A stretch of 64,000 bases of DNA from an uncultured bacterium (GTDB lineage Bacteria > Cyanobacteriota > Vampirovibrionia > Gastranaerophilales > Gastranaerophilaceae): contig CASFTJ010000002.1 of NCBI GenBank assembly GCA_949297715.1, positions 1-64,000 on the forward strand, given 5' to 3'. Position numbers and translations under genes: made by a program. Positions 15,506 to 46,144 of this stretch are shown one piece after another. Each line of letters opens with the position of its first letter. Position 1 is the stretch's first letter. Below the pieces are notes generated by a model that was given only the letters and a program-made list of their open reading frames with translations, did not search any database and had not been told where the DNA came from.

Positions 15506-16396
15506 TTATTTTTTTATATCGGAGAGAATTTTTTCTCTTAAATCTTTGTAGTAGTTTAATATGTTTTCAAGCTGAGTGTAAAAAAGCTTTTCTCCGTGAT
15601 TGTTAATTTCGGCTAAGCTTGGGGTTGAATAAGTTTCTTCAATAATTATCGGTTCGTCAATGTTGTTTTTGACTTTCATAATTCTGGTATTGTTTAAGAC
15701 TGCGGCTGCCCAAAACCATAAATCATCATTTGTCGGTGCAAGTTTCTTGAAAAGTTCTTCGTTAGTGACGTCTTTAAATAGTGAATGCGGCGGGTATAAA
15801 ACCCCTCCGACTCCGACAAGAATATTTCCAAATGACGGATATTTATAACATTTTTTTTGTTTGGTTTTTATTTTGTTATCTTTAAATGTAATTTTCTTTG
15901 TTTTGTGACAGTGGATGTGATTTGGGAATTTAAGATATGATTTGTATAATCTTTCAATTGTTTTAGGATGATAAAAAACATCATCATCTGCTGTAATTAT
16001 TATATCTTCAGGAAATTCTTTAATGGTCGGAACAAGCTTTTTATAAGATCTTAAATCTTTGCACCAGCGGATTGTAAGCCCGAAATTTTTGAGTCTTAAA
16101 ACTTCATTAGATAAATCTTTTTCCCGATTTGGGAATTGTTCTTCCGCAAGCCATAAAATCAGCATATCAGGTTTTAAAGTTTGGTTGAGTAAAGAAGAAA
16201 GGTTTTTATGAAGGCTTGGGATTCTGTCGGGAAAAGATGTAAGAGAAACAATAATTTTCGGTTCTCTTTTTTGTGCGGATAAACCGTTTGTGTTAACGGG
16301 TGTGTACTTATATTTTTTAGCAGTGTTGTATCGGAATTTTAATCCGAAAACAGTAATAATTCTTTTGCTTCCGAATTTTTCTTTTTTGAAAAACAA
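15506..16396 (-). CDS. glycosyltransferase, GT2-like
   Basis: The 296-residue protein starts with TTG, fixed by a strong AGGAGG 7 nt upstream. After a Lys-rich first 45 residues comes a GT-A-type pattern: KIIVSLTSFPDRIPSLHKNL (start of a nucleotide-sugar fold), LNQTLKPDMLILWL, and ADDDV as the metal-binding DxD at about residue 137. The C-terminal part includes NDDLWFWAAAV. There is no membrane segment. Sugar donor and acceptor cannot be told. It is convergent with the purH-like gene (14 nt apart). A probable small RNA or attenuated leader lies just upstream on the same strand, so expression may depend on read-through. Confidence 0.75.
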   Translation of the reverse strand: MFFKKEKFGSKRIITVFGLKFRYNTAKKYKYTPVNTNGLSAQKREPKIIVSLTSFPDRIPSLHKNLSSLLNQTLKPDMLILWLAEEQFPNREKDLSNEVLRLKNFGLTIRWCKDLRSYKKLVPTIKEFPEDIIITADDDVFYHPKTIERLYKSYLKFPNHIHCHKTKKITFKDNKIKTKQKKCYKYPSFGNILVGVGGVLYPPHSLFKDVTNEELFKKLAPTNDDLWFWAAAVLNNTRIMKVKNNIDEPIIIEETYSTPSLAEINNHGEKLFYTQLENILNYYKDLREKILSDIKK

Positions 16397-16470
16397 TATT
16401 AAGCCTCCTGTTTATTTAAATTTTAGTAAGACTTAATATTTATGTCAACAAATGAGAAAATTGGAAATAT

Positions 16471-16498
16471 AAAAAAAGACGGCAGTAATACCGCCGTT
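16471..16498 (-). terminator. intrinsic terminator of the candidate small RNA
   Basis: A 7-bp stem with one A-C mismatch (ACGGCAG with CGCCGT on the + strand, loop TAATA) is followed on the - strand by seven T. No protein gene lies upstream on this strand to account for it. Confidence 0.7.
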
Positions 16499-16672
16499 TA
16501 CTTTTATCAAGAACTATAAAAAGGTTACTGTGCAGACCTTTTGTTCTTTTTAAATAGTTTGAAAAAGTTTTTGGAATTATAATGTCTGTTTTTTAGTTTT
16601 TGGTGTCTGATTTGTCATAAATAAATAAAGTCTTAAATGTGTATAGTTTGGAGAATATTCATCACGTAATTT
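16471..16672 (-). ncRNA. candidate small RNA, or attenuated leader of the glycosyltransferase gene
   Basis: A perfect-consensus promoter (TTGACA-N17-TATAAT, 16679-16707) and an intrinsic terminator (16471-16498) on the - strand bracket about 200 nt without a convincing reading frame. Near the 3' end a two-part hairpin is visible at 16509-16548: AAGAAC pairs with GTTCTT and AAAAGGT with ACCTTTT around a 10-nt loop. The 5' half is A-rich and looks unstructured. The glycosyltransferase ribosome site lies about 60 nt beyond the terminator, so either a free-standing RNA or a terminated leader is possible. No known RNA family is recognised. Confidence 0.55.
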
Positions 16673-16678
16673 TATTTC

Positions 16679-16707
16679 ATTATAAGACGTATCATGTCTA
16701 ATGTCAA
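16679..16707 (-). promoter_or_regulatory. perfect-consensus sigma70 promoter with a palindrome in its spacer
   Basis: On the - strand TTGACA, 17 nt, TATAAT. It is the only promoter here matching all twelve consensus bases. The spacer holds an imperfect palindrome AGACGTATCATGTCT (16685-16699), a possible operator for the divergent XRE regulator starting at 16788. Confidence 0.75.
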
Positions 16708-16787
16708 TTAATTAAAGAAAAAATATGACTTTATGCACCCTTAAATCGTTATAACAATAAAGTTAGTATATTAGAAGGATGGCATTT

Positions 16788-17471
16788 ATGTATAAAAATT
16801 TAAAAACTGCATTCGGTGAGAATTTAAAATATTTGAGAAAATCCAAAGGTTTAACGCAGGAACGGCTTGCGGAAATTTTAGGTATATCACACAGACAACT
16901 TTCCAGAATAGAGGCTGGAGATAATTTCCCATCAGTTGAAACATTGGAAAAAATAAGTTTATATTTAGAAACAGAATTAAAGGTATTGTTTGATTTTGAA
17001 TGGGATAAAAAATATGCGGTATTATCAAACGGGACGGATGAAAGACCAGTATTTGAGGTGTCATTGAATGATACTGTCATAAATCTTGCAAATTACACAA
17101 AGAGATTTACTCAAAAACAGGCGGATAGTTTTTCGGATTGTGAAAACATAGAAAATTCCGATAAAAGTATGCTAAATTCTGCAAAAAATATAAATAAACC
17201 GATAACTGTAGTTTATAAAGAGCCGAATGGCGAGCTTTCGCATATAAAAACCTATTATCCTGACGGCACGATTGAAGTTGCGATGTCAAAAGAGCAGGTG
17301 GAAACGGGAAAAATTCGCAAATTAATAAACGAAGATTTAGATAAAATCGGAGATGACTTAAATAAATTGAATTTTATAAGGTTAGCGATGGAATCTTTAG
17401 ACAGTCGTGAAAAGTTAGAGCAATTAAAAAATCTGATAAAGGGAATGGAGATAATTCTCGGTTCAAAATAA
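16788..17471 (+). CDS. XRE-family regulator with C-terminal extension
   Basis: The start at 16788 is preferred because AGAAGG lies 9 nt upstream; the ATG at 16779 abuts it. The HTH_XRE domain covers residues 5-65: FGENLKYLRKSKGLTQERLA, then LGISHRQLSRIEAGDNFPSV, then LEKISLYLETELKVLFDFEW. The following 160 residues include a short beta-like stretch (PITVVYKEPNGELSHIKTYYP) and a helical C-terminus (LKNLIKGMEIILGS). They resemble no ligand domain I know. It is divergent from the candidate small RNA, whose promoter spacer contains a palindrome it could bind. The target is inferred. Confidence 0.85.
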   Translation: MYKNLKTAFGENLKYLRKSKGLTQERLAEILGISHRQLSRIEAGDNFPSVETLEKISLYLETELKVLFDFEWDKKYAVLSNGTDERPVFEVSLNDTVINLANYTKRFTQKQADSFSDCENIENSDKSMLNSAKNINKPITVVYKEPNGELSHIKTYYPDGTIEVAMSKEQVETGKIRKLINEDLDKIGDDLNKLNFIRLAMESLDSREKLEQLKNLIKGMEIILGSK

Positions 17472-45971: not shown

Positions 45972-46070
45972 AAAAATTTTCTCCTTTTATTATCTACACA
46001 GAGGATGTATTCGGCAGAAAGAACTTATAACTTTAATTTTTTATTAATATGATACATAAATTTACAAATG

Positions 46071-46100
46071 AAAATCGCCCCGATTTTCACCGGAGCGATT
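46071..46100 (-). terminator. intrinsic terminator after hppA
   Basis: A 10-bp stem (AATCGCCCCG with CGGAGCGATT, one wobble) around an 8-nt loop is followed by TTTT on the - strand, 45 nt after the hppA stop. Confidence 0.85.
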
Positions 46101-46144
46101 CTTTATATGAGAAATACTCATATTCCCTAGTTTTTGTTTTTTAT

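Follow-up and report, generated by a model that had tools for sequence, protein, structure and literature searches.

A conserved candidate small RNA gene facing an XRE-family regulator in a genus of Gastranaerophilales

We describe a predicted transcription unit on the reverse strand of a 64-kb stretch of DNA (hereafter the window) from a gut bacterium. Its group, the Gastranaerophilales, is related to cyanobacteria but does not photosynthesise. The unit carries its own promoter and its own terminator, which are conserved together across the genus, has no conserved coding capacity and lies divergent from a gene for an XRE-family regulator. We read it, at a probability of roughly 0.6, as a stand-alone, genus-specific small RNA gene that would be controlled by the XRE protein and act in trans. 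The window lies on contig C2 of a 2.02 Mb genome (G000), and the genus was sampled with 14 genomes. The unit and its regulator consist of the following features.

16679–16707, reverse strand: sigma70 promoter of the RNA, TTGACA-N17-TATAAT, found by motif search
16680–16700, reverse strand: inverted repeat resembling an operator, (T)AGAC-N7-GTCTTA, within the promoter spacer and a single base away from the -10
16471–16672, reverse strand: predicted non-coding RNA of about 202 nt, its start placed 7 nt past the -10
16571–16587, reverse strand: core AGACATTATAATTCCAA (= AGACWTTATAATTCCAA, 17 nt), identical in 11 genomes save for one A/T variant
16509–16548, reverse strand: two-part hairpin AAGAACAAAAGG...CCUUUUUAUAGUUCUU, a lineage-specific long form predicted by folding, with some compensatory pairs in six sequences
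16470–16497, reverse strand: intrinsic terminator, ACGGCGG-TAT-TACTGCCGT followed by CTTTTTTT, kept in 12/12 genomes with the RNA
16779–17471, forward strand: XRE-family (HTH_3) regulator of 230 aa, divergent from the RNA and the putative controller of its promoter, recognised by Pfam and fold match

The initial annotation had described the window's only perfect sigma70 promoter, some 200 nt without a gene, a two-part hairpin and an intrinsic terminator, and all four were borne out. The perfect TTGACA-N17-TATAAT occurs a single time in the 64-kb window, compared with an average of 0.04 in shuffled sequences (4 of 100 shuffles contain one). From the predicted start at about 16672 there follow approximately 200 nt without a gene, and no ORF of at least 60 aa was found inside the unit. 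The hairpin, AAGAAC...GUUCUU at 16548–16509, is present in the MFE fold, and the 205-nt RNA folds better than its shuffles (z -2.34), with 1 of 200 shuffles equally good. The terminator closes the unit from 16497 to about 16470. The further proposal of a new small RNA is likewise supported, in that the unit is conserved, stands alone, is non-coding and lacks an Rfam counterpart: the Rfam search suggested in that annotation was run and gave no match to the window RNA at the gathering threshold. Matches to SSRC34_2, L20_leader and rseX at relaxed thresholds were dismissed as driven by the terminator. An internal promoter at the core (TATAAT within AGACTTTATAATTCC) was also considered and rejected, as the -35 is inconsistent and paralogous RNAs lack the TATAAT.

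The unit was recovered from 12 of 14 genus genomes by searches with the DNA and with the regulator, and its predicted transcripts are 144–204 nt long. Promoter and terminator are retained in all 12, and the core in 11, whereas identity of the XRE protein falls as low as 53% across the same genomes. Within the promoter 19 of 29 positions are invariant (21 of 29 in the alignment without G011). In that same alignment without G011, just 5 of 85 columns are invariant in the 5′ part of the RNA and 16 of 17 in the core. The core, AGAC[A/T]TTATAATTCCAA, is common to 11 of the 12 genomes with the RNA and degenerate in G011, and the CAAACTATTT segment is retained as the terminator is. The hairpin varies, with the long form in six genomes, a short form (ATTTTATCGTTCCCGATAAAAT and its relatives) in five and none in G012; among the six long forms compensatory changes are limited and covariation is thin. 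Conservation of promoter, hairpin and terminator as a set, on which the initial annotation had staked its proposal, thus held for promoter and terminator and less constantly for the hairpin. A MAFFT alignment of the 12 transcripts places the 3′ hairpins wrongly between two sublineages, and structure was therefore assessed per sublineage. In the covariance search in related genomes that had also been suggested, a model built from G002, G005, G007, G008 and G012 only returned the window RNA at exactly 16587–16471 (38 bits), a match whose first position is the start of the core. Run over 146 genomes of the family, this five-genome model found genus members only. A second match in the window, at 46020–46106 on the forward strand (31 bits), was discarded as chance, since it is AT-rich, has a hairpin of its own and lacks the core.

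Predicted ensembles leave most of the core unpaired (mean unpaired probability 0.56–0.87), and it would present, on these predictions, an accessible conserved segment of the kind expected in a small RNA. Sites complementary to it were as numerous as those of reversed-pattern controls, i.e. at chance level, and for eight genes of the window the duplex energies of the RNA with their translation starts were no better than those of shuffles. The core opens with AGAC and in this resembles an operator half-site; given this GAC, selection on the DNA itself could account for part of its conservation.

The XRE gene is the neighbour that stays with the RNA. At every locus that could be checked the two are transcribed divergently (in G008 the contig ends there), and the two genomes lacking the RNA, G004 and G013, lack an XRE orthologue also. 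The regulator scores 55.3 bits against HTH_3 (PF01381), above the Pfam cut-off of 23, and the predicted fold of its HTH part matches C.BclI, C.AhdI, C.Esp1396I and SinR among the matches listed. Residues ~123–230 form a C-terminal domain of about 108 aa, for which an alpha/beta part and then two long helices are predicted; neither a Pfam family nor any of the structural matches listed covers it. In the 2-Mb window genome the XRE protein has 34 matches, and XRE-type HTH genes are strongly expanded there. At one locus (L035, G009) a repeat-rich insert of GTCATCCTGAG... units lies between the XRE gene and a comEB-like gene; it is absent there in the other genomes inspected.

The palindrome in its best form reads TAAGAC-TTTATAC-GTCTTA; it lies in the spacer and extends to the -10. 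The context GAC-N7-GTC-N-TATAAT is found at 12/12 genus loci, in two paralogous modules and in a further genus (g19). When 59 genomes were searched for the composite site TTGACA-N3-GAC-N7-GTC-N-TATAAT with at most one mismatch, 15 matches were returned versus 2 for a reversed control. An XRE gene runs divergently from 14 of the 15, and the fifteenth (G008) lies at a contig end. By kind, they comprise 12 orthologous loci, the two paralogous modules (G005 and G012) and one locus in another genus (G031), where the site is divergent from a full-length regulator homologue. The paralogous modules lie about 11–12 kb from the first and combine a 137-aa XRE gene with a second short terminated RNA.

L093, 1501–1710 (G012): second module of XRE gene, operator-promoter and RNA
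L094, 1501–1695 (G005): second module of XRE gene, operator-promoter and RNA

The RNAs of these modules differ in sequence but retain a CAGAC-T-TTTC motif at a position similar to that of the core. The composite site is hardly found away from XRE genes, and this distribution supports action of the XRE protein at the palindrome, with binding as the probable mode.

The circuit might work as follows. The RNA promoter would be intrinsically strong, and the XRE protein would most likely bind AGAC-N7-GTCT between its -35 and -10. The same protein would also occupy a related site in the promoter of its own gene, thereby repressing both the RNA and itself; repression is the expected sign because the promoter carrying the palindrome has perfect hexamers to begin with. 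A signal would release the repressor, whereupon the RNA would be made and would end at its own terminator. It would then act in trans, most likely via the unpaired invariant core AGACWUUAUAAUUCCAA, which may pair with mRNAs or bind a protein.

The initial annotation had also suggested that the unit may be a terminated leader upstream of the glycosyltransferase gene; as an attenuator it would control that gene by regulated readthrough of the terminator. The neighbouring features, both outside the unit, are these.

15506–16396, reverse strand: glycosyltransferase-like gene (GT-A/GT2-like, sub-threshold in Pfam)
16420–16448, reverse strand: the glycosyltransferase gene's own promoter, TTGACA-17-TAAAAT, 11/12 consensus, between the RNA terminator and the glycosyltransferase start codon

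The gene scores 18.8 bits against the Pfam GT2 family, below the cut-off of 23.3, and likely starts at a TTG behind AGGAGG. In six genomes it follows the RNA on the same strand, about 75 nt past the terminator, and the order of promoter, untranslated RNA, intrinsic terminator and same-strand gene is indeed that of attenuated 5′ leaders. However, we regard an attenuator as highly improbable. The near-consensus glycosyltransferase promoter beyond the terminator is kept in 6/6 genomes having the adjacent gene, and in six others the RNA stays although no glycosyltransferase lies behind it: a convergent purH takes this place in G002, G005, G007, G008 and G012, and a different convergent gene in G011. 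No match to the glycosyltransferase was found in the genomes G002, G005, G008 and G012; the match in G007 is weak, lies on another contig and contains an internal stop, and in G011 the gene lies about 3 kb from the RNA, behind purH. The gene occurs without the RNA in G004, where it is leaderless and directly behind another reading frame, and in G013. Moreover, the terminator showed no alternative anti-terminator pairing. Known attenuated leaders thus differ from the window RNA in that its downstream gene is inconstant and has a promoter of its own, and no switching structure is held in common. Because each occurs without the other and the glycosyltransferase has its own promoter, the RNA and the glycosyltransferase gene, judged from their distribution, assort independently. 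In six genomes the spacer of the glycosyltransferase promoter keeps a GTC that forms GAC-N11-GTC with the -35 and stands close to where the RNA promoter has its own; it may be a half-operator for the XRE regulator or chance.

Three further readings keep the unit and change its meaning. That it is a short mRNA for a small peptide is the least probable of all: ORFs of 9–22 codons do exist in the 5′ part of some genomes, but no ORF common to the transcripts of the 12 genomes was found, and those of G002, G003, G005 and G011 contain no complete ORF of at least 6 aa. The main rival, which we nevertheless consider unlikely, is that the RNA is functionless, a terminated by-product of selection acting only on the DNA operator and promoter of the XRE gene. 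The operator palindrome is the most strongly conserved part of the promoter, the AGAC at the start of the core could mark an intragenic binding site, and the transcripts opposite this regulator are different ones in other genera, all of which would fit this reading. Yet invariance of the core extends past the half-site through TTATAATTCCAA, the CAAACTATTT segment and the terminator are retained too, and CAGAC-T-TTTC recurs in the paralogous RNAs without the remaining sequence. Rather doubtful, finally, is that the XRE protein activates the RNA instead of repressing it, or does both as in a C-protein-like switch. The controllers matched by its HTH fold (C.BclI, C.AhdI and C.Esp1396I) both activate and repress, and the half-sites GACT/AGTC of the canonical C-box, GACTTATAGTC (PMC4321490), resemble the GAC...GTC of the window site. 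Against this, the palindrome lies in the spacer, beside the -10 of a promoter with perfect hexamers, which is the position of a repressor. The likeness to C proteins in HTH fold and palindromic site is also bounded by differences: the window regulator has its extra C-terminal domain, and the half-sites are spaced by 7 in the window site compared with 5 in the C-box. No restriction-modification genes were found among the window ORFs examined, at 9–22 kb.

For an XRE-controlled small RNA as we propose it, the nearest published analogue that we found is the Brt/Trp system of Bartonella henselae. Brt RNAs are 194–203 nt long, genus-specific and multicopy, and each is paired with an XRE/HTH (Trp) gene; they have been proposed as trans-acting small RNAs, with no relatives outside the genus (PMC5387305). 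The likeness lies in a genus-specific non-coding RNA of about 200 nt that is genetically paired with an XRE regulator. However, Brt sits upstream of, and in tandem with, the trp gene, which it may control by termination (PMC5387305), whereas the window RNA is divergent from its XRE gene, shares a common intergenic region with it and has an operator-like palindrome in its promoter. Because Brt and trp are in tandem and the genes here are divergent, we treat the resemblance as one of analogy and not of membership; the two are likened by description, and common origin is not implied. A stand-alone, non-coding RNA of about 170–200 nt also recalls 6S RNA (RF00013). This identity was rejected: the locus gives no match to the model, whereas 6S-like matches lie elsewhere in these genomes, among them a candidate at G000:C9:56396-56558.

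Lastly, we surveyed the divergent partners of the regulator in the wider family, where a profile of its C-terminal domain has matches in 12 of the 41 genera. In genus g19 the promoters are perfect or near-perfect and contain the GAC-N7-GTC site; the candidate RNAs there are about 75 nt long, with weak terminators. In genus g17 the palindrome is different, and the candidate RNAs are structured, strongly terminated and 126–130 nt long, with a common ATTTCCTTA segment before the terminator. These g17 RNAs have no evident similarity to the window RNA. Elsewhere the partners are protein-coding: regulator homologues face a GT2 gene in genus g4, mostly capsule-type glycosyltransferase genes in genus g6 (a pirin-like gene instead in G078) and polysaccharide flippase-like genes in genus g49.

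L120, 876–1005, reverse strand: g17 candidate RNA, divergent from a regulator homologue
L122, 2254–2381, forward strand: g17 candidate RNA, divergent from a regulator homologue
L123, 2255–2381, forward strand: g17 candidate RNA, divergent from a regulator homologue
L124, 2257–2382, forward strand: g17 candidate RNA, divergent from a regulator homologue
L113, L112, L115, L118, L104, L105 and L110: regulator homologues in g4, g6 and g49 facing GT2, capsule-type glycosyltransferase or flippase genes

This survey therefore indicates that the regulator family faces either non-coding RNAs or surface-polysaccharide genes. The role in surface glycosylation put forward in the initial annotation draws its one line of support, weak and indirect, from the XRE relatives that face glycosyltransferase or flippase genes in other genera; a link of the RNA to surface glycans is possible on this comparison of neighbourhoods. 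Tentatively, and at less than even odds, we suggest that the XRE lineage defined by its C-terminal domain stands at the head of a two-gene control module and has exchanged its divergent partner several times. In at least two genera (g1 and g17, possibly also g19) the partners would be terminated non-coding RNAs without relation to one another, and in others glycosyltransferase or flippase genes. The window RNA would then be one of several independently acquired small RNAs paired with this regulator, plausibly controlling surface glycans.

We found no descriptions of small RNAs for Gastranaerophilales in the open-access literature, and a conserved RNA with a candidate regulator therefore provides a concrete entry point. 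The unit offers a promoter, an operator, a regulator, RNA boundaries and a 17-nt core for tests in a surrogate host or for searches of gut metatranscriptomes. Moreover, if it is true that the regulator family swaps RNA and glycan-gene partners, these genera would form a natural series on the recruitment of small RNAs into a transcription-factor circuit.
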